64,000 bases of DNA from Desulforapulum autotrophicum (GTDB lineage Bacteria > Desulfobacterota > Desulfobacteria > Desulfobacterales > Desulfolunaceae): assembly GCA_020723285.1 (NCBI GenBank), contig DYJE01000024.1, positions 1-64,000 of the forward strand, in the 5' to 3' direction. A program made the position numbers and the translations under genes. Position 1 is the stretch's first letter. The number at the start of each line of letters is the position of its first letter. This document shows, in pieces, positions 1 through 9,556 of the stretch. The notes under the pieces were generated by a model, which did no database searches, was not told where the DNA came from, and was given only the letters and a program-made list of their open reading frames with translations.

Positions 1-209
1 TTCCATGCCTTGCCCTCCGTTCTTGTCATTCCGGGCGGGGGCTTTTTCCCGACCCGGAATCCATGCCTGTTTGTGTTTCACCGCTAACTTCATACCACCA
101 TGGATTCCGGGTCGGCTTGCTTTTCAACCTGAACGACACGACGGTGCTTATTTACGACGCAAACATCGTCTCACCGATACCAGCCGCCCGGAATGACAAA
201 ACGAGACGG
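1..209. repeat. Palindrome-rich intergenic repeat, copy 1
   Basis: This stretch is repeated base for base at 358-566, an offset of 357; it may extend left beyond the window. It contains a 16-base inverted repeat at 23-38 and 184-199 and an inner 15-base inverted repeat at 51-65 and 99-113. Each half resembles the short TCATTCC...GGAATCCA palindromes dispersed in many proteobacterial genomes, here arranged head to head. Open frames across it are long only because of the repeat and show no protein family, so I treat it as non-coding. Confidence 0.85.
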
Positions 210-270
210 ATCGGGCAATTTGTCGGGTTTCGTTCCAAGAAACTGCCCTACGACAGCCTGACGCATTCTT
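208..270. repeat. Short dispersed repeat, member A (degenerate)
   Basis: Shares the core TTGTCGGGTTT...CCTACGA and the following AGCCTGACGCA segment with the members at 43312-43370 and 51564-51602. In this member the right palindrome arm is altered, so the hairpin is imperfect. Located between the two copies of the longer repeat. Confidence 0.55.
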
Positions 271-357
271 GCCGTGCACAAACCATATCAGTCAGAAGCA
301 GTAGATTGCATTCCATGTGCCAGAACATGGTTCGTTTACCTGCCACCTTAATGTCTT

Positions 358-566
358 TTCCATGCCTTGCCCTCCGTTCTTGTCATTCCGGGCGGGGGCT
401 TTTTCCCGACCCGGAATCCATGCCTGTTTGTGTTTCACCGCTAACTTCATACCACCATGGATTCCGGGTCGGCTTGCTTTTCAACCTGAACGACACGACG
501 GTGCTTATTTACGACGCAAACATCGTCTCACCGATACCAGCCGCCCGGAATGACAAAACGAGACGG
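358..566. repeat. Palindrome-rich intergenic repeat, copy 2
   Basis: Second copy of the 209-base unit at 1-209, in the same orientation and apparently identical. The 148 bases between the copies are unique and include one copy of the short dispersed repeat at 208-270. Two identical copies this close suggest a recent duplication or a currently mobile element. Bases 567-678 after it show no gene. Confidence 0.85.
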
Positions 567-678
567 TTTAGCACAGTAAAAACATATGGGGTATTAGCAG
601 CACCCAGCGGCAGGTCACCCGGATCGGCGGTGAACGCATCATTCCCATGCTGACCGGAGAACAGTTGACCCGGATTTG

Positions 679-1056
679 TTAAGGTTTGAAAATGCTCAGC
701 TGAAGTTCTTTGATCGGTTTAAAATGCTTGGCGTTGCTTGAGGCGAGAACCTTGTGATTTTCGACGGCCGTTGCCGCGATAATGGCATCGCCAGCCCTCA
801 AACCGGAGGAGAGGGCGTATTCTTCCAGATAAATCGAGGCGCGGTGACCGATGTTTTCAGTGAGGGGAAGAACGGAAAATCCGAAAGACGAAAGAAAGTC
901 TTTGACGTATGTGTGCTGAACCTTGTTTTTTGCACCCTGTAGAAGCTCCATGTACGTTTGCACTGAAAGATACCGTTCTTCGGACTTTTCCATCAGATCC
1001 ACGGCTTTTTCATTTCCCCTCTGAGCAAAGATGAAGATGTCCGTATCAAAGATCAC
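679..1056 (-). CDS. PIN-domain ribonuclease toxin (VapC-like)
   Basis: Probable type II toxin: a PIN-domain, metal-dependent ribonuclease of about 125 residues. The start is taken as the GTG at 1056 because the protein then opens with the usual PIN N-terminus (IFDTDIFIF) and GGAAGG lies four bases upstream; longer readings give an atypical leader. The acidic positions of the family are present: Asp in FDTD, Glu in YMELL, Asp in AGDAIIAA, and an Asn in the SSNAKHF motif. It overlaps the 3' end of the antitoxin gene upstream by 11 bases, the usual antitoxin-toxin layout. Unlike the vapC at 37484-37855, this frame is intact. Confidence 0.85.
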   Translation of the reverse strand: MIFDTDIFIFAQRGNEKAVDLMEKSEERYLSVQTYMELLQGAKNKVQHTYVKDFLSSFGFSVLPLTENIGHRASIYLEEYALSSGLRAGDAIIAATAVENHKVLASSNAKHFKPIKELQLSIFKP

Positions 1057-1288
1057 TGTACCTTCCCCCCCGCAATGCAGCCATTTCAGCTTCAACAGAT
1101 GTTTCATCAACGGCTTTGAACATGCCGAAAAAAGGGTGTTCTTTCATTCCCATACTGGCTTTGGTTCCTGAAGGGACAAGAATTCCTTTGATCTTGCCCC
1201 GGTAAAGAACCGTCACCTGTTCATTCCGGTCAAGGGCCTTGAGCACGTCGTTCATTTTATACCTCAAATCGATAATACTGGCTTTCAT
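1046..1288 (-). CDS. Antitoxin of PIN toxin, Phd/YefM-like
   Basis: About 80 residues. The N-terminus (MKASIIDLRYKMNDVLKAL) resembles Phd/YefM-type DNA-binding antitoxins that bind their own operator through the N-terminal domain and wrap the toxin with the C-terminal tail. The ATG at 1288 is chosen over one seven codons upstream because GGAG sits eight bases before it. It overlaps the PIN toxin start, so the two are likely translationally coupled. The exact antitoxin family is inferred from size, context and the N-terminal pattern rather than a clear motif. Confidence 0.75.
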   Translation of the reverse strand: MKASIIDLRYKMNDVLKALDRNEQVTVLYRGKIKGILVPSGTKASMGMKEHPFFGMFKAVDETSVEAEMAALRGGRYSDL

Positions 1289-1319
1289 AGGCATTTCTCC
1301 CTGCTTCATGTCTATATCC

Positions 1320-1349
1320 TATATACATGACAGGTGAAAACAATGTCAA
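1320..1349 (-). promoter_or_regulatory. Predicted promoter of the antitoxin/PIN operon
   Basis: On the minus strand there is a consensus -35 TTGACA (1344-1349) and a -10 TATATA (1320-1325) with an 18-base spacer, about 30 bases upstream of the antitoxin start at 1288. The palindromic AT-rich stretch around the -10 could be the antitoxin operator. Confidence 0.55.
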
Positions 1350-1393
1350 AATCATTTTCGACTCCATCGCCAGCATGGCAGACACGTATCAAA

Positions 1394-1427
1394 AGCACAG
1401 ACCATTGATCAGCACAGACCATTGATC
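1394..1427. repeat. 17-base tandem duplication
   Basis: The 17 bases AGCACAGACCATTGATC occur twice in a row (1394-1410 and 1411-1427). It lies in the roughly 390-base stretch 1289-1679 between the toxin-antitoxin promoter and the GIY-YIG gene, where I find no convincing gene. Confidence 0.7.
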
Positions 1428-1620
1428 CTGCGAAGCGTCTCTTTGAAAAACGATGATGGATTGAAGAAACATGCATTTTTTCACTCAAAACCTTGTCTCG
1501 CCGACACATTCGTTCCATCAAGGGTCATCCGTCCTCTTGATATTCCATGACCGAGCAGATCAAGGCCTGATCAAATCCCCATCATACAGAAGACCTTCTC
1601 AACGAACCGTCCAACATAGC

Positions 1621-1721
1621 TTTATTAAGCATCCCCTTGATATTTGTGTTGATTTTTCATTGAATACCTGCAAGAAAATATGAACAACTTTAACTGTCCG
1701 TTACTGGGGATGCTTAATAAA
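1621..1721. repeat. 16-base inverted repeat around the GIY-YIG gene start
   Basis: TTTATTAAGCATCCCC (1621-1636) and its exact reverse complement (1706-1721) flank the start codon at 1680. In the transcript the arms could pair and place the start codon in a 69-base loop, or they could be an operator pair. Perfect pairing over 16 bases with mixed composition is unlikely by chance. Confidence 0.65.
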
Positions 1722-2588
1722 CTCTATACGTTCTGCCAACAAAGTGACATGATCACCATATTCAAAATATTTGGAATATACGGTATCGATCCAGCCACGA
1801 TAAAACTGGTTCGTCATGGCAATAAAGAAATTCCAATTTATGAGACGTTTCTAAACAATCTCAAGCGGTTCGAAGTGTATCAGAGTTTTCAGAATCCGAA
1901 TAAATTTGGAAAATCCAAATCAATCGCCGTCTTTGCTCCATATTATAAAACGACTGGTCTTTTTCTTGGCCTGTGGGACATTCAAGGGTGCACTGCAAAT
2001 TCAAATTTTTCGGAAGAAACTCGAGTTCTCTTGAAAAGGCATCAATTACCGGAGGACTGGTTCAACCATGTCGTAAGATATGACTTAAGAAGAAACCATA
2101 TTCTCGATGAGTTATCGGAACGATTAGTCATCGAATGGGGTGCCGCGACTGTCGCATGGGTTCAATCGAAGGATAAAGAAGTGGTAGAATTAAAAGGGAA
2201 AAAATCAATTGGAGATTTTCAATCATTCAGTTTAGTTGACTTGGACTATCAAGACCTGAAAAAATTAATACAATTCCCTGACACAAACCTTACTTGGTTG
2301 AAGGCGCTATCTTCCGTTAATGGCGTTTACCTAATCAAAGACAAAATATCAGGGAAGCTTTACGTCGGCTCTGCATATGGTGAGCAAGGAATTTATGGTA
2401 GATGGTCTGCCTATGCAAAAAATGGTCATGGAGACAACTTGGAATTAAAAGGTATAGACCCATCTGCCTTTCAGTTCTCAATACTTGAGATAGTACCAGC
2501 TACCACAACAGCTGATGGGGTAATTGAATGTGAGAACAGGTGGAAAGAGAAACTTGGTACTATACAATTCGGATTAAACAAGAATTGA
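1680..2588 (+). CDS. GIY-YIG nuclease family protein
   Basis: A 302-residue protein whose last ~90 residues form a GIY-YIG nuclease domain. The signature is GVYLIKD followed by KLYVGSAYG, then IYGRW (the conserved Arg), His in GHGDN, FQFSILE, and a metal-binding Glu in ECENRWKEKLGT near the C-terminus. The N-terminal ~200 residues match no family I recognise and contain an aromatic-rich stretch (SIAVFAPYYKTTGLFLGLWDI). Stand-alone proteins of this plan are scattered in bacteria next to mobile DNA; the substrate is unknown. The gene is markedly AT-richer than the metabolic genes nearby, which suggests transfer. The start is uncertain because no good ribosome binding site precedes 1680. Confidence 0.8.
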   Translation: MNNFNCPLLGMLNKLYTFCQQSDMITIFKIFGIYGIDPATIKLVRHGNKEIPIYETFLNNLKRFEVYQSFQNPNKFGKSKSIAVFAPYYKTTGLFLGLWDIQGCTANSNFSEETRVLLKRHQLPEDWFNHVVRYDLRRNHILDELSERLVIEWGAATVAWVQSKDKEVVELKGKKSIGDFQSFSLVDLDYQDLKKLIQFPDTNLTWLKALSSVNGVYLIKDKISGKLYVGSAYGEQGIYGRWSAYAKNGHGDNLELKGIDPSAFQFSILEIVPATTTADGVIECENRWKEKLGTIQFGLNKN

Positions 2589-2678
2589 TGACGGCAGAAC
2601 CATGCCTTACACTATAATGGCAATTCCGCTACGCTACATTGCCACTTGTGAAGGCCGCGTTCGGCAGTAAGGAATGTT

Positions 2679-2903
2679 ATGGCAAAAGCAACTTCATGTA
2701 TGTTCATAAATAGTCTGATTGATATATCTGAGGCTCTTGAACTTAGGGCTTCTGCCAAAAAACATCATGAAGCTATACCAGACTTCAGATGCACCCAATG
2801 TGATGAACCAGTTCGGGCTCATAAAGCAAGTCAGTACGGCCAAGCCCATTTTGAGCATAAAATCAGGAATCCCAATTGTCCTTTGAGTGATCCAAATAGG
2901 TGA
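2679..2903 (+). CDS. Small Cys/His protein, possible zinc finger
   Basis: A 74-residue protein with a C-x2-C pair (CTQC) followed by HFEH and a further Cys in NPNCPLS. This spacing resembles the zinc-binding segment at the front of CoiA-like and related nuclease proteins, but no nuclease domain follows, so the protein may be a fragment or a free zinc ribbon. It starts 90 bases after the GIY-YIG gene; the start codon is preceded by AAGGAATGTT. The region between the two genes forms several small inverted repeats (for example TGGCAAT at 2619-2625 with ATTGCCA at 2638-2644). No firm function. Confidence 0.5.
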   Translation: MAKATSCMFINSLIDISEALELRASAKKHHEAIPDFRCTQCDEPVRAHKASQYGQAHFEHKIRNPNCPLSDPNR

Positions 2904-2970
2904 GATATAAATACATAGGCAATATATATTATTGATTTTACAGAGCATGATTTGTTGAATTGGTTTTGCC

Positions 2971-3240
2971 GAATCTGGTAACCAGGTTTTTTTCTCCCCC
3001 AGTCCCCACACCACCCGGCATGCGGGGCCGCACCGGCGGTTCACGAAGATCACCGGGCCGTATCCAGATCGTGAATGTTGACCCACCGTTGTTTGATGGA
3101 TACCAGTCCCTGTTTCTCAAACCATTTGCCGTTCATCACAAGTTCCGTGGCGCAGGTTCTCGATAAGTGCCACGGTCCTTAGCGGCTCATGCCGACGGCA
3201 ATCGCCATGTCGAGGGCAGCCCGGCCGGTGAAGGGTACGT
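2971..3240 (-). pseudogene. Group II intron remnant 1: 3' end of reverse transcriptase/maturase plus intron tail
   Basis: Read on the minus strand, bases about 3240 to 3057 translate to the C-terminal end of a group II intron reverse transcriptase/maturase (GMSR-stop-GPWHLSRTCATELVMN, then KWFEKQGLVSIKQRWVNIH, ending TAR and a stop). An in-frame TAA interrupts it where RKG is expected. After the stop comes a GC-rich hairpin region ending in a tail like the domain V-VI and 3' boundary of bacterial introns (... ACC AGATTC). The 5' part of the intron and most of the maturase are missing, so it cannot splice alone. A second copy of the same segment lies at 3881-4128 in the same orientation. Bases 2904-2970 hold nothing recognisable. 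Confidence 0.8.
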
Positions 3241-3257
3241 TCTGTTTTTGAAAAAGT

Positions 3258-3286
3258 GTTGCGCATTGCGCAACATGCTATATAAT
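3258..3286 (+). promoter_or_regulatory. higBA promoter and palindromic operator
   Basis: A perfect palindrome GTTGCGCATTGCGCAAC (3258-3274) overlaps a -35 element TTGCGC (3259-3264); a consensus -10 TATAAT lies at 3281-3286 with a 16-base spacer. This sits just upstream of the toxin start at 3294. HigA-type antitoxins repress such promoters by binding palindromes, so this is the likely operator. Confidence 0.65.
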
Positions 3287-3293
3287 ATCATTT

Positions 3294-3572
3294 ATGATAC
3301 ATTCATTTAAACATAAAGGGCTGCGTAAATTTTTCGAGACGGGTTGCGTATCAGGGATTCAGCCGGACCATAAACAAAAGCTGAGAATCCGCCTAATTGC
3401 GCTTGACACAGCGACATGTATTGAAGATATGAATACTCCGGGCTGGCGGCTCCATAGTTTAAAAGGTGATCGTCAAGGATTGTGGGCGATTGATGTTAAC
3501 CGTAATTGGCGAATCGTTTTTGAATTTAAAGAAGGTAACGCCTAAATTGTAGACTATGAGGATTATCACTGA
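3294..3572 (+). pseudogene. higB: HigB-type mRNA-cleaving toxin, broken by one ochre codon
   Basis: RelE-superfamily HigB toxin. The first 83 residues (MIHSFKHKGLRKFFETG ... NWRIVFEFKEGNA) are intact and colinear with the family, then codon 84 is TAA (3543-3545). Reading on in the same frame gives IVDYEDYH and a TGA at 3570-3572 that overlaps the antitoxin ATG by one base. Without the stop the protein would be 92 residues, the usual HigB length, and would end in the conserved DYH. In characterised HigB these C-terminal Asp-Tyr-His residues take part in mRNA cleavage, so the truncated protein is probably inactive. A single substitution at the third codon base (for example TAT to TAA) would explain it. 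Promoter and antitoxin look functional. Confidence 0.85.
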
Positions 3573-3862
3573 TGACTATGTATAACCCTCCCCATCCAGG
3601 GGAATTTATTCAAGAAGTTTATTTGGAGCCGCTGGGTATTTCGCCTCGAAATGTCGCACTGCGGCTTAAAGTCTCCCCTTCAACATTTTTAAGAATATTG
3701 AGGGGGCAAAGTTCTATAAGCCCGGCAATGGCTCTTCGTTTATCCAAGTGTTTAGGCCGTAGCCCTGAAAGCTGGCTCCACATGCAGGATAGTTATGACC
3801 TTTGGCATGCAAAACAAACTGTTGATCTTTCTGAGATAACTCCCATTCAAGTCTCTGCTTAA
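3572..3862 (+). CDS. higA: HigA-type antitoxin, Xre-family DNA-binding protein
   Basis: A 96-residue helix-turn-helix antitoxin with the diagnostic HigA opening NPPHPGEFIQEVYLEPLG, followed by the HTH (VALRLKVSPSTFLRILRG) and the family pattern SPAMALRLSKCLGRSPESW. It normally binds HigB and represses the shared operon. Its ATG overlaps the ancestral HigB stop (TGATG), so it was translationally coupled to the toxin; the ochre codon at 3543 now ends toxin translation 26 bases earlier. The gene is intact although its partner is broken. Confidence 0.92.
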   Translation: MTMYNPPHPGEFIQEVYLEPLGISPRNVALRLKVSPSTFLRILRGQSSISPAMALRLSKCLGRSPESWLHMQDSYDLWHAKQTVDLSEITPIQVSA

Positions 3863-3880
3863 TAATATTAAGAATCAACA

Positions 3881-4128
3881 GAATCGGATAACCGGGGGTT
3901 TTTCTCCCCCAGTCCCCACACCACACGGCATGCGGGGCCGTGCCGGGCGGTCAACGAAGATCACCGGGCCGTAGCCGGGTCGTGAATGTTGACCCACCGT
4001 TGTTTGATGGATGTCAGCCCCTGTTTCTCAAACCATTTGTCGTTCATCGCAAGTTGCGTGACGCAGGTTCTCTATAAGTGCCACGGTCCTTTGCGACTTA
4101 TGCCGACGGGAATCGCCATGCCGAGGGG
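3881..4128 (-). pseudogene. Group II intron remnant 2: 3' end of reverse transcriptase/maturase plus intron tail
   Basis: Second copy of the segment at 2971-3217, same orientation, diverged at scattered positions. On the minus strand it encodes LGMAIPVGISRKGPWHL-stop-RTC, then TQLAMNDKWFEKQGL and SIKQRWVNIHDPATAR before the maturase stop. The in-frame stop here (TAG) is at a different codon than in copy 1, so the two decayed independently. The intron 3' boundary reads ...GGTTATCCGATTC. The remnant begins 18 bases beyond the 3' end of the dehydratase activase gene, consistent with introns that settle just after genes. It is the 284-base stretch 3863-4146 that otherwise has no gene. Confidence 0.8.
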
Positions 4129-4146
4129 GCACACTATCGGTGCTTA

Positions 4147-7100
4147 TCAAATCACTAAGGCCTGTTCCCGGTTCCGGTGAAGACGCTGGGCAAAACTGTT
4201 GACGCGCCGTTCGTCCAGGGGTTCGCCGTCGTCATAGAAAAAGTGGAACGGTATGTCTTTCCGGTGACGCAAAAGGCTTTCCTCCACCAGGCTGTTGTCG
4301 CAGCCCCAGCAGCTGGTCATCAGAACACCGTCGGGTTTCAGGCGGTCCCAGTAATGGAGCACACTTCCCACGGCGTAGCCGGAGCCGCCCACAGTTTCCG
4401 GGTCGATGATCTGTTTCGACCGTCTCAGAACCTCGGGCATGTCGGGCATGGGAAGCCAGGGCTGTTTTTTCCGCGCCATGGTGTAAAGACTGTTCCTGAT
4501 CAGGTCCATGACATAGACATAGGCTTTCTGTTTGTTCCGTGACGCCCCGCGCCCGAATATCAGCTCCGGGTGGACCCGGGTGGAATAGTCGATGAAATCC
4601 GCGCCGGGCTCCACCACAAGCCGGACATTTTTGCCGCCCAGATAGTCATAAATCCCGGCGTTGGCCACATCGTTGCCTTTGGTCATCATGTCGCCGGAAA
4701 CAAACACCACGGGACAGGATGCGGCCGCTTTTCCGTTTTCCGCCATGGAGAGAAACGATTCCGATGCCTCGGTCACTATGTCTTTCAGCTGTTTCCAGTG
4801 TTTTCGTTTAAGGGCCGCGCCTCGGAATCCCGAAACATCGGAAGGTTCTTCGATCAGCGCGATGATCCGGTCGCTGAATGTTTTGTAAAGTTCACGGGCA
4901 CGCCCCGGCCAGGGTTCCACAACCAGATGGTACACGTAAAACTGCCGGACGATATCGAGGGCGGTGAGACCGGCCATCACCCGCGCCGCCATGCCCGCGC
5001 CACCGGCGATTTTGAGGGATGCCACACTCACCTGGCCGTCAAGCCCCATGCGCTCGATGGACATCCGGTCTTTGATGCCGAACATGCCCCCCCGGCACAT
5101 CCGCCCGGAAATCTGGACAAGACGGGTTTCCCTTCCGTCGTCCTTTAAACCGTCAAGATATTCCCGAAACGCCCCCCAGACGCATTGATACGACAGACAC
5201 TCCTTGCCTGTGCAGTCGGATTTCCCCAGGGCCATGTTCGCCTTGGTCACCGGGGGAGCGCACACCGCGTCGTACCCGTAGGACCGGTAAACCGCGGCGA
5301 ACAGTTCGCCCAGATATTCGATGCTGCTCAAAAACACGTAACGGACGTTTCTATCGAGATACGGCCCTTTGGGTTTGCCGCTTTCGATGTATTCCCTGAT
5401 CTTCGACGCCTCACCTGCCCTTTCCGTATCACCGTCTTTCATGAAACGGTTCACGGAATTCAGGAAACTCTGGATTCGGGTGACGAAACCGGCTGTCCCG
5501 CCGTGGCCGTCGCTTTCGAGAATGGTGTGGGGATACCCGGATAGAAGACTCTGGAAAACCTGCTCGGTAAACGATGCCGGTCCGCAGCCGAAAGACGAGA
5601 TCATCAGGGGAAAAGCCCTTTTCGTCCGCATGGCCGATTCGGCGGCCCGGAGGTAGCGGTTGGCGTCCGCCCAGTATATTTTGTTCATGGACCCCACGTC
5701 CGGTGAAACGGGATAACAGTCCATGGGAACGGCCATGGCCCCGTTGCGCCTTAAAAGTTCAGGGATGTGGGAATGGGCGGCCGGATCATGAATCACATGG
5801 AGTGAGCCGCAGACCACCACAGAAGGAAATCCATGGTTTTTCGCATAGTCAAGGGCTCTTTCGCCGATTTCGCGAAGCTGCCTTTCGGCGCGTTCCTGAA
5901 CGTCCGCCGCAGTGGCCAGCGCTTTTGAAACGAGGGCCGCGTCAGCATCAAGGTCCTTCACAAGAAGCGCCATGGCTTTTTCCATACGCGGCCCTTTCAG
6001 GCCTTTCTGGAAATACAGCCGCGGCCTCAGCACCGTCGCCGCTTTGTTGCGGGCCTTGAACGACTGCTCGATGATTTCCGGCATGGCCTGTTCGGTGACG
6101 CAGGTCATGCCGCCCGGTCCTTCGCGGTCCGGCATATCCATGATCTTGGGGAAGAACAGAAACGGGATGTCCGTTTCACAGATGGCATGGGCGATTTTCA
6201 CAGGGCCGCAGGAATCGAAGCTGTTGCACAGGTACTCGCCCCTGGCCAGTGAGTTTTTCTCCGATTTGAGCAGGGTCACCGAATATCCCAGTTCGGAAAG
6301 CAGTGTGGAAAAATAAGGAATGTAACTTCCCACAGCACCGGTCACGGGAATGGCGACGTTTTTCCCTGACCGTGATTTTTTTTCGAAAGACGCCATCAGC
6401 TCCGCCCTTTCCCTGAACGGATCCGGCGCGTCTTTGGGCAGTTTCGCCCGGCCATGGGACGCCCCTTCATATTTGGGGCAGGCTCCGCCGGACAAAGCCG
6501 TTTTCGATACGCCGTCGTACATCAGGGTGGTCCGCTCAATGGGGCAGTGGGTTTTGCAGTCTGAATCATTGCAGACAAATTCGTCACGCCCCGTGATTTC
6601 AGCCTGAAGCATCAGACCCGGATCCAGTGCGGCCGCATTTTGAAGTTCATCTTTTCCCAGGTCGCTCACAGTCAGAAGCCCGATTCCCCAGGCACCCATG
6701 GCACCGGGATCCGCGGGAACGACGATATGTCTGCCTGTGACCGCCGAAAGGGTCCAGGCCAGGGAGGGATTGGACGCGGGTTTGCCCTGGAAAAAAATTT
6801 TTCGTCCAAGACGCCTCTGGCCCATGACCCGGTTCAGGTAATTCTGGATCACGGAATACTGGAATCCTGCAAACACTTCGGAACGGCTGAACCCTTCCTT
6901 CAGGGCTTCGGCCCCGGATTCGGCAATGAACACCGTGCACATCTGGCCCAGGTCCGGCGCGCGTTCCGCCGACATGGCCATGTCCACAAAAGCGCCGATA
7001 TCCCGGACATCGTAAACCAGGGCCTGCTCTTCGAGAAACGATCCCGTTCCCGCGCTGCACGCCTTGTTCATATCGCTTTCGATAATCCGGCCGGAGCTGA

Positions 7101-8424
7101 TACGGATGTACTTGGCGTCCTGGCCTCCGATCTCGATCACCGACAGATCGTCACCGCCATCAGGATCGCAGTGGATCGCAGCCGTGGCATGAGCCACGAT
7201 TTCGTTTTCCACAAACACCCTGTCAGAGTCGGAATACACCGCACGAGCAAGAACAGACGCCGCCTCCCTTCCCGATCCTGTGAAAGCCACGGCTTTGACA
7301 TCCGGCGTTCCTTTTTCAAGAATGGCGGTCACAAGCCGCCTTGCCGCATCCACAGGATTGCCCCGGGTGGTGTCGTAAACGCTCAGAAGGGGCAGGCCGG
7401 TGCCGATGTCGGTCAGAACGGCCTTGGCACCTGTTGAACCCAGATCGAAACCCAGCACTGCCGGAGTATTCCGCCAGTCCGTTATTCCATCGCCCTGGCC
7501 GGGCATCACGGTCACTTTTTCCCGGTGGGCCGCTGCGGACCCCATAACCCTGAATTTCTTTTTATCCCGCCTTCTCAGCCCTGAAGGATCTGCGGGAAGT
7601 TCCATGACAGCACCTGACATACCTTTTTCCGCAGCCGCCTGGATCGCGCCACGCACGTCAAAACCCATGGCGTCTTCAGGAACGATGAGATCCGCCCCCA
7701 GTTCTTGCTGAAAAACCTCCACCAGTGCGGATAATTTCGTACATCCGCCGATCAGGTACACCGGCCCGTCCACCCTGTTCTTGGCGAGAAGGCTAAGGGT
7801 GTTTCCGGCCACGGACCTGAAATATCCTGAAAGCAGATCCGGGACGGGTTTTCCCTGATTGGCGTAATGGGTCATTTCGCTTTTGGCGAAAACCGAACAC
7901 CGGGCGGTGATGGGAATGGCGTTATCCGCTGTCCGGGCCATAAGGTCCGCATTATCAAGTTCAAGCCCGAAACGCCGGACGATTTTCTGAATATTCTCTC
8001 CGGTCCCCGACGAACACTTGTCGTTTTCGCTGAACCGGTAGAACTTTCGTCTTCCACGTCCAGCGATGCCGTCAGAGTCCGTGGTCCGGGACAGCACACT
8101 GTACCCCCTTGCGCCCAGACTGACGAGATTCATGGAACCCGGAAACGCGGGGTCGGCATCCAGAAGGGCTTCCCGGCATGTGTCTTCGGGAAGGACTGTC
8201 ACACCGTCCGTAAACTGTTCCGAATAAAGACCGGTGGCCGTGAGTATGCGGCATGAGGCCACCTGTTTTTCAAGATACCAGGCTTCAAACAACTCGAACA
8301 CGCGGCCCTCATGGCAGACCATGCGGATATCGTCCAGTGTGATTTTCCCGGAATCCGAAACCGTGGCCAGGGCGAATTTCGCCCAGATTTTGCCCAGATC
8401 ACAGGCGGCGATGCGGAAGGTCAT
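4147..8424 (-). CDS. Acyl-CoA dehydratase activase fusion (two BadF/BadG ATPase domains, DUF2229, HgdB-like)
   Basis: A 1425-residue fusion related to the activators and subunits of 2-hydroxyacyl-CoA dehydratases. ASKHA-fold activase domain 1 spans roughly residues 3-300 (KCSSGTGEN cluster motif), and domain 2 about 320-610 ([25 protein letters not shown]). A Cys-rich linker follows near 618 ([15 protein letters not shown], then GGACPKYEG), then a DUF2229-type domain from ~685 and an HgdB-like iron-sulfur region to the end. In the family, activases hydrolyse ATP to push one electron onto the dehydratase through a bridging 4Fe-4S cluster. This all-in-one protein is widespread in anaerobes but its substrate is not established. 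The ATG at 8424 is preferred because AGGAG lies six bases upstream, 19 codons inside the longest frame. It is divergent from a GlxA-type regulator. Confidence 0.85.
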
Positions 8425-8560
8425 GACTGTCTCCTTGGCTTGGGGTTGACAACATGTGATTCGTTCTCGTGAGATGATCATTCATACATCATTGACACGG
8501 CCAAGAGAAACAGGCATACATGACTTATTTCATGCCAATAACGCCACAGAGGATTCAAAC

Positions 8561-9556
8561 ATGGCTCATCTTACCTTTCTGATCGACCAGGGCTGTCTGT
8601 CATCGGCTGTCTGCGGTTCGGTGGACGCTTTTTCCATCGCCAACATGATGTGGCTCTTTTTGCGGGGGGGAACCGGGGCCCCCCTGTTCAGGACGAGCAT
8701 CACATCCGCTGACGGGAAACCGGTGCTGGCCAACGGCGGCATCATGCTCCAGCCCGATTCGTCCATCACGGATGCACGGGATCTCGATATCATCGTCATT
8801 CCGGCGTATCTTCCCCCTTTCGATCTTGAAAACCAGCGCACGGAAACCCTCTGCGCCTGGTTAAGGGAACAGCATGAAAAAGGCGTGACCATCGCCGCCA
8901 CCTGCACCGGCACCTTCCTTCTCGCCAGATCAGGCCTTCTTGACGGAAAAACCGCCACCACCAACTGGCAGTTCGCCCCGATGTTCAAGCGGATGTTCCC
9001 TTCGGTTGATCTGAGGGCTGACAGGATCCTCACCGAAGATCATGGAATATATTGCACCGGCGCGGCCACGGCGTTCATGGATCTCTGCCTCCACCTCATC
9101 GAGAAATTCGGTTCCGAAGACCTGGCAAGGATCTGTTCCAAAACACTGCTCATCGACCCGGACCGTCAGAGTCAAAGCCCTTACATCATGTACGACTTCT
9201 GGAAAAACCACACCGACGACGCCGTGCTGAAATCCCAGAACTGGATGGAGGCCCACTACGCCAGCCCCATCACCCTTGACGACATCGCCGGGGCCGCCGG
9301 GCTGAGCCCGCGGCATTTCATCCGGCGCTTCAAGAAGGCCACCGGTGAACCGCCCATTGCCTATCTTCAGCTTCTTCGCATTGAAAACGCCAAACGGAAA
9401 CTCGAAAGCACCCGGGACTCTGTCAACGAAATCACATGGAACGTGGGCTACGAGGATATCAACTCGTTTCGCCGGCTGTTCAAAAAACACACGGGGCTTT
9501 CTCCCAAGGAGTACAGAAACAAGTTTGCCCGTCAGCCGATGGCCCCGTACAGATAA
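8561..9556 (+). CDS. GlxA-family transcriptional regulator (DJ-1/PfpI-like domain plus AraC HTH)
   Basis: A 331-residue regulator. The N-terminal ~190 residues form a DJ-1/PfpI-like domain (LTFLIDQGCLSSAVCGSVDA; ATCTGTFLLARSGLLDG, with Cys at the nucleophile-elbow position; TTNWQFAP). The C-terminal ~100 residues are an AraC/XylS double helix-turn-helix (ITLDDIAGAAGLSPRHFIRRFKK; VNEITWNVGYEDINSFRRLFKK). Related proteins sense small amine or amide metabolites and activate catabolic genes. The ATG at 8561 is chosen for its AGAGGA site seven bases upstream; a longer frame from 8456 has no such site. It is divergent from the activase fusion across a 136-base gap, so that gene is the natural candidate target. 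Confidence 0.88.
   Translation: MAHLTFLIDQGCLSSAVCGSVDAFSIANMMWLFLRGGTGAPLFRTSITSADGKPVLANGGIMLQPDSSITDARDLDIIVIPAYLPPFDLENQRTETLCAWLREQHEKGVTIAATCTGTFLLARSGLLDGKTATTNWQFAPMFKRMFPSVDLRADRILTEDHGIYCTGAATAFMDLCLHLIEKFGSEDLARICSKTLLIDPDRQSQSPYIMYDFWKNHTDDAVLKSQNWMEAHYASPITLDDIAGAAGLSPRHFIRRFKKATGEPPIAYLQLLRIENAKRKLESTRDSVNEITWNVGYEDINSFRRLFKKHTGLSPKEYRNKFARQPMAPYR

Follow-up and report, generated by a model that had tools for sequence, protein, structure and literature searches.

The perfect inverted repeat that lies upstream of a GIY-YIG gene in Desulforapulum autotrophicum is the end of a mobile element, rather than a control device of that gene. Its homologues point to the right terminus of an IS91-type element with an XerA-like tyrosine recombinase, and the gene, probably uzuA, encoding the protein of the Uzume phage-defence system, appears to begin a short row of cassettes that starts exactly at this end. 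With moderate confidence we propose that the element is mobile and cassette-like, and that its relic end was the docking site for the uzuA cassette. The most interesting part is, as we read it, the IS91/tyrosine-recombinase element itself, which has attC-like ends and has settled both within integrons, in the place of a cassette, and at GTT/GAT. The DNA analysed, called the window below, is a stretch of 64,000 nucleotides (contig DYJE01000024.1); the features are listed in Table 1.

Table 1. Features of the element end and of the two cassettes behind it, in window coordinates.
Feature	Position	Strand	Evidence
Relic (last ~161 bp), read as right end of IS91-type/tyrosine-recombinase element	1569..1729	+	Homology to C1, G022 and C77 copies; hairpin model R1
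R''-like box GTCCAAC of attC-like end	1609..1615	+	GTT in register with the AAC box, 58/77 copies
Left arm of inverted repeat (hairpin stem)	1621..1636	+	Complementarity; covariation in 11/17 pairs over 22 ends
Right arm of inverted repeat	1706..1721	+	Complementarity; covariation in 11/17 pairs over 22 ends
Junction G^TT and cassette start GTTCTGCC	1730..1737	+	Coordinates checked; homology to other uzuA genomes begins at 1726-1729
Cassette 1 (uzuA)	1731..2659	+	Exact closure GTTCTGCC / GGCAGAAC at 2593-2600; same unit in L011, L012
Probable uzuA, 279 aa; GIY-YIG domain residues 191-271	1749..2588	+	PADLOC PDLC03973, E 2.6e-81; PF01541; start by homology
attC-like site of uzuA cassette, GCAGAAC ... 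GTTCGGC	2594..2665	+	Arms GCCTTACACTATAATGGCAAT / GCCTT-CAC-A-AGTGGCAAT, score 23
Predicted cassette 2, degenerate downstream end	2660..2974	+	Start by attC-like site; end box TGCCGAAT at 2967-2974
ORF2, 74 aa, DUF7830/CoiA_N-like Cys/His	2679..2903	+	PF25169, 37.6 bits against cut-off 27.5

The arms of the repeat are complementary at 16 of 16 positions, as originally predicted, with a spacing of 69 nt, and the region folds far better than shuffled sequence (z -4.85; as good in none of 200 shuffles). The low GC content remarked on at the outset is equally real, being 0.40-0.42 at positions 1001-3000 against mostly 0.48-0.60 in other parts of the window. The repeat had been thought to span the start codon, and the open reading frame then assumed, of 302 residues, does begin within it, at 1680. 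The UzuA profile, however, runs from residue 24 of this frame to its end (profile positions 2-278 of 278), and in both of the closest relatives (88-89% identical) the gene begins at the methionine equivalent to residue 24. The gene start is thus the ATG at 1749, and both arms therefore lie upstream of the gene. A search of window positions 1-9000 against Rfam, with E up to 5, gave no match.

Homologues of the repeat region identify its owner. Besides the window copy, this genome holds copies on contigs C77 (93% identical to the relic from position 1617) and C1 (82% over 1569-1732), together with a 39-bp fragment on C17; a copy in G022 is homologous from 1569, and a 71% copy, in a genome of the order other than this one, has a fragment of an IS91-type Y2 transposase just upstream. 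As a query, this fragment found a match in 42 of 242 genomes of the order. A search of the D. autotrophicum genome for a Y2 transposase found none, and its control gave no signal either. In many of 30 loci inspected the hairpin stands 250-450 nt behind the stop codon of an IS91-type transposase gene, and it also precedes unrelated genes. Across 22 aligned ends, 93.7% of cells are paired and 11 of 17 pairs have changed on both sides, a result reached by no shuffle. Of 389 genomes of the order, 105 contain matches to a covariance model of the hairpin that was built without the last bases and without the GTT.

Full-length copies, of 2.6-3.0 kb, encode a tyrosine recombinase and an IS91-family HUH transposase, the latter absent from the window relic. 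The transposase scores 410.8 bits with NF033538 (cut-off 125), whereas the recombinase stays under the cut-offs of both XerA (NF040815, 180.3 bits against 220) and IntI (TIGR02249, 171.2 bits against 265). The right end with its hairpin is fixed, and many copies are truncated at the 5' side, among them most of those flanked by GTT. One 481-bp copy (L149, on contig C37 of genome G334) has both element ends and no detectable recombinase or transposase, and is possibly a non-autonomous form of the element. The early suggestion that the repeat might be an insertion scar came near to the truth. A MITE-like reading was dropped once the repeat turned up behind transposases.

The element end resembles an integron attC site in its layout. 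At the feet of the window hairpin are GTCCAAC, a box ending in AAC, and GTTCTGC, which opens with GTT. Sixty further matched regions were joined to the earlier loci, giving 84, and removal of overlaps and two doubles left 77 copies. AAC and GTT occur together at the fixed place in 58 of these, so that GTT is in register in 58 of the 62 copies with an AAC box; four have AAC without GTT, two have GTT with the box altered or lost, and 13 have ATC and never GTT there. This last, second subtype is mostly full-length (L116, L117, L118, L120, L121, L131, L133, L135, L165), has right flanks such as GAT, GGT or TGT, not GTT, and perhaps reflects a different recombinase specificity. The arms are fully paired in the window, most relatives have one conserved mismatch, and the spacers are unequal; the hairpin appears to be without the paired extrahelical bases that cassette attCs show.

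Among 25 copies in which both genes are nearly complete, 20 begin with 8 nt that exactly complement their own R'' box, situated 2.5-3.0 kb to the left of it. This holds for five different sequences in 9 genomes, the complementary pairs being GTTGAACA/TGTTCAAC, GTTGAACT/AGTTCAAC, GTTGGACT/AGTCCAAC, GATGGACG/CGTCCATC and GATGGACT/AGTCCATC; copies within each of the genomes G357, G273 and G279 are near-identical, and the independent cases number fewer than 20. A change in the box is thus matched by one in the left end, which is what a site completed on a circle requires. The five copies without the complement are L117, which has a masked stretch, L120, L135 and L136, which belong to a CACTTAT subtype, and L076, whose upstream sequence is short. 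To the right, the 20 copies are flanked by GTT (13), GAT (6) or another triplet (1), and the fourth base is free. The minimal motif reported for IntI1 is GNT, including GAT in secondary sites (PMC10127599).

Full-length copies are found inside integrons and outside them. Four in genome G279 lie directly behind an attC (scores 21-26, as good in none of 200 shuffles in each case), and for three of these the surrounding region also contains an intI gene. A half-attC to the left of the element is clear only in these four of 20 full-length copies, with weak values elsewhere. One copy in G273 begins about 0.36 kb from an intI match, at the place expected for a putative attI; another in the same genome is outside any integron, between genes whose translations read as fumarate/succinate reductase subunits. 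Copies outside integrons, at GTT/GAT, are present in both G357 and G273. IntI is present in 56 of 105 genomes with the element and in 128 of 284 without it, a difference that is not significant (p=0.09).

Directly at the end of the relic, uzuA appears to occupy an integron-type, swappable cassette, with closure and an attC-like layout as in integron cassettes. The first 8 nt of the cassette are the exact complement, 8 of 8, of GGCAGAAC behind the uzuA stop codon, and the attC-like site there has L arms with extrahelical bases and ends in GTT. Its partner box was first placed at GTTATGG (2676) and was replaced by GTTCGGC (2659) after alignment of the arms; a stricter attC scan, with a threshold of 22 and shorter arms, misses the site. 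The unit also recurs elsewhere: DNA homology to two other genomes is confined to 1726/1729-2589/2590, and in Desulfospira and Desulfurivibrio the cassette, 88-89% identical, follows attC-like sites of other kinds. The Desulfurivibrio unit is also followed by an attC-like site of its own, whereas the Desulfospira unit has lost its downstream end. The repeat is thus not conserved with uzuA, an outcome that the original prediction had named among those that would refute it.

The 74-residue Cys/His protein of the original prediction is indeed Cys/His-rich and matches DUF7830; it also matches CoiA_N, below the cut-off of that family. AAGGA at 2669-2673, read from the sequence ahead of ORF2, may be its ribosome-binding site. 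ORF2 appears to form a second cassette, independent of uzuA, whose downstream end is degenerate: TGCCGAAT is found where the R'' box TGCCGAAC would be expected, at the start of a 246-bp repeat. The window thus appears to hold a short cassette cluster without an adjacent integrase, made up of the relic end, the uzuA cassette and a DUF7830 cassette with a broken end; neither intI nor attI was found beside this cluster in the window. The genome does have an IntI gene, on contig C5 (458.5 bits against a cut-off of 265; the only IntI above it), and on the side where an array would lie the contig ends 443 bp away.

Other features of the window are recorded here for completeness. Direct repeats of ~246 bp at 2971-3216 and 3881-4127 lie on either side of a HigB/HigA-type toxin-antitoxin pair (3294-3862). 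The repeat is also present in part on C28, C66 and C1; Rfam has no match to it, and it may be what is left of an intron or IS. At 682-1309, on the minus strand, a PIN-domain toxin gene (PF01850) adjoins a short antitoxin-like frame, and a long near-identical direct repeat (1-209 and 358-566) was read from the sequence at the contig edge.

Cassette-like units behind the element end are not confined to uzuA. An exact 8-nt closure 200-1600 nt downstream of the GTT is present in 19 of 54 copies, a set that includes the window copy from which the idea of closure came, against 1.64 on average and at most 6 in 1000 permutations; upstream, the same closure words number 3. A score that combines closure and stem reached significance at 0.05 in 13 of 55 copies, a weaker result than that of the exact words. 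In a further set, closure was found in three of 15 GTT-flanked copies. In this genome, each of the three sizeable copies has a cassette-like unit behind it. Behind the C77 end (L033:8318-8968) the unit carries an LRR protein and is closed, by eye, by ATTCGAAC; behind the C1 end (L032:13312-14032, minus strand) it carries a DUF4231/SLATT membrane protein and a ThsB-like TIR protein, is closed by GGTATAAC at 7 of 8 positions, and is a candidate defence cassette.

Our main reading starts from what the sequence itself displays, namely the element family, the hairpin, the termini, the GTT/GAT junctions, the cassette closure and the UzuA family. From these we infer that a tyrosine recombinase acts on the element end, and that the uzuA cassette docked there, rather than the element inserting beside the cassette. 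The box ending in AAC, the long hairpin and G^TT would make the right end attC-like, and the element's own left end would complete the site on a circle. The element would then move as a cassette-like circle by way of this end into GTT or GAT, both at ordinary sites and in the cassette slots of integrons. Most copies would decay from the left, with the surviving right end retaining a usable G^TT; the copy in the window would have lost everything except its last ~161 bp and kept the recombination point. The uzuA cassette would have been inserted exactly at the relic G^TT, most simply by the IntI encoded elsewhere in the genome, and the addition of cassettes from an integron at the relic end would give the order seen, of relic, uzuA and ORF2. 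Counting against this reading are the distribution of IntI, which does not follow that of the element, the apparent lack of paired extrahelical bases in the hairpin, the lower rate of closure in the further set, and the search of this genome that brought up no Y2 transposase, though its control also gave no signal.

A broader and more tentative generalisation, which we regard as possible though somewhat doubtful, is that IS91/tyrosine-recombinase elements are autonomous integron cassettes, which build an attC from their own termini when circular and can use integron slots as well as ordinary GTT/GAT sites, and whose many 5'-truncated ends, scattered over the chromosome, act as attC-like docking sites or make cassettes of their neighbours. 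If this is true, such elements would explain in concrete terms how some attC sites and gene cassettes arise.

The main rival, to which we give perhaps a one-in-several hearing, dispenses with the tyrosine recombinase: the repeat would be a plain IS91-type oriIS, an HUH transposase would have inserted the element at the GTT that starts an existing cassette, and the fragment would have arisen by one-ended transposition or decay. This accords with the IS91 transposase of the full-length copies, above its cut-off, with the many 5'-truncated copies whose right end is fixed, and with the description for IS801, an IS91 relative, of one-ended transposition yielding right-end fragments of 229-679 nt and of GAAC-type tetranucleotide targets (PMC3189936). 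It does not account, however, for the GAT targets, nor for left ends that, in five sequence versions, complement R''. It also predicts a half-attC to the left of the element, and G279 is the one genome where this was found. No GAAC-type word was seen at the start of the truncated left ends in the recent pair L174/L175. That the repeat simply belongs, as attC or attI, to an ordinary cassette or integron upstream is improbable; its likeness to a transposon end would then be due only to a transposase gene that once became a cassette. Such an origin would suit the attC-like layout, which has the best attC-like score in window positions 1-6000, and the placing of the G279 full-length copies in cassette slots, but not the full-length copies at GTT/GAT outside integrons in G357 and G273; moreover, the left flank of the window copy is homologous to other element copies, and no upstream cassette gene was seen.

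The two functional proposals fare much worse. Control of translation, which the original prediction thought possible, or of transcription of the GIY-YIG gene would fit a strongly folding hairpin directly upstream, but the hairpin belongs to a mobile element, stands behind IS91-type transposase genes and before unrelated genes, and is missing from uzuA genes that are 88-89% identical; we consider such regulation highly implausible, and a leader or terminator role was dropped on finding that the repeat accompanies copies of the element, whereas uzuA occurs without it. Equally hard to sustain is a two-gene defence module in which the small protein is the partner of the nuclease. The genes are adjacent and on the same strand, but an attC-like site lies between them, a tblastn search for ORF2 in 8 other uzuA loci gave no match in any of them, and PADLOC has no match to ORF2; the two genes are therefore not a conserved pair, and the module fails the refutation test set out with the original prediction. 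Of the mobile-DNA or defence module once suggested, both themes survive, in a known defence family and in a cassette at the end of a mobile element, while the module itself does not.

The protein deserves separate comment. The predicted GIY-YIG domain is borne out by PF01541 (E 3.4e-07), whereas the N-terminus, formerly described as of unknown kind, is covered with the remainder by the profile of one known defence family, making it probable that the gene encodes UzuA. A search of genome contigs gave 8 uzuA loci, one of them partial; relatives on 389 plasmid records are all below 60% identity, and a pattern scan of IMG/VR returned 16 stretches, none confirmed as UzuA. PF01541 is present in 8 of 8 UzuA members, and R218 and E262 of the domain are invariant across the eight-member alignment, with a catalytic role for this conserved Arg/Glu pair that we assume from I-TevI. 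In a structure model (pLDDT 78.6, pTM 0.54), residues 189-278 match the I-TevI catalytic domain with Z 8.4. Residues 1-142 match residues 129-255 of PD-T4-3 (PDB 9u75, titled a 5hmC-specific restriction endonuclease) with Z 6.9 over 116 residues at 11% identity, and at lower Z the ASCH, YTH, PH1033-like and McrB N-terminal domains, values in a range (Z <8) where matches can be due to chance; low-Z PDB rows were left out as evidence for family membership. These domains belong to one PUA-like superfamily.

By this model, UzuA would combine a PUA-superfamily-like fold at its N-terminus with a GIY-YIG nuclease domain. This suggests a modification-dependent enzyme, which would cut phage DNA on recognising modified bases in it, a view we hold with moderate confidence. 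Uzume is a single-gene defence system, with UzuA as its only protein. One survey lists it among the defence systems of unknown mechanism (PMC10482375), and the PUA-like fold offers a testable proposal, the cleavage of modified phage DNA.

The locus may finally be set against known systems. It shares with Uzume the full-length profile match, the single gene and the GIY-YIG domain, and differs in that uzuA, known here from sequence, lies on an integron-type cassette. With PD-T4-3 the N-terminal domain of UzuA shares a fold, but at such low identity a shared fold is not a shared function. Integrons that carry phage-defence genes have already been published (PMC12444791, citing Darracq, Getz and Kieffer 2025). 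The uzuA unit resembles such cassettes in its closure and its attC-like site; here, in contrast, uzuA appears to be docked at a transposon-type end and not at attI, with no intI beside it in the window. Relic ends could allow Uzume and other defence genes against phages to become established away from the main integron. The formation of new gene cassettes is listed as an outstanding question (PMC8618304), and attC-like-ended elements that occupy cassette slots and leave many truncated ends would offer one answer to the origin of cassettes, which is directly testable. In the open-licence papers searched, we found no account that treats the ends of IS91-type elements as attC sites.

Recombinase genes occur in some relatives of IS91. 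The present element resembles the IS91 family and ISCR in its transposase, its fixed hairpin right end and its many 5'-truncated copies, but differs in its tyrosine recombinase gene, its left end complementary to the right-end box, its attC-like layout and its GTT/GAT targets. The target of the family is a GTTC/GAAC-type tetranucleotide; the right flanks here (n=20) are GTT or GAT with a free fourth base in all but one case. IS1111-attC is an element that targets attC. Group IIC-attC introns are likewise mobile elements at integron recombination sites (PMC7923331). Both insert into attC, whereas in the element described here it is the element's own end that appears to be built like one.
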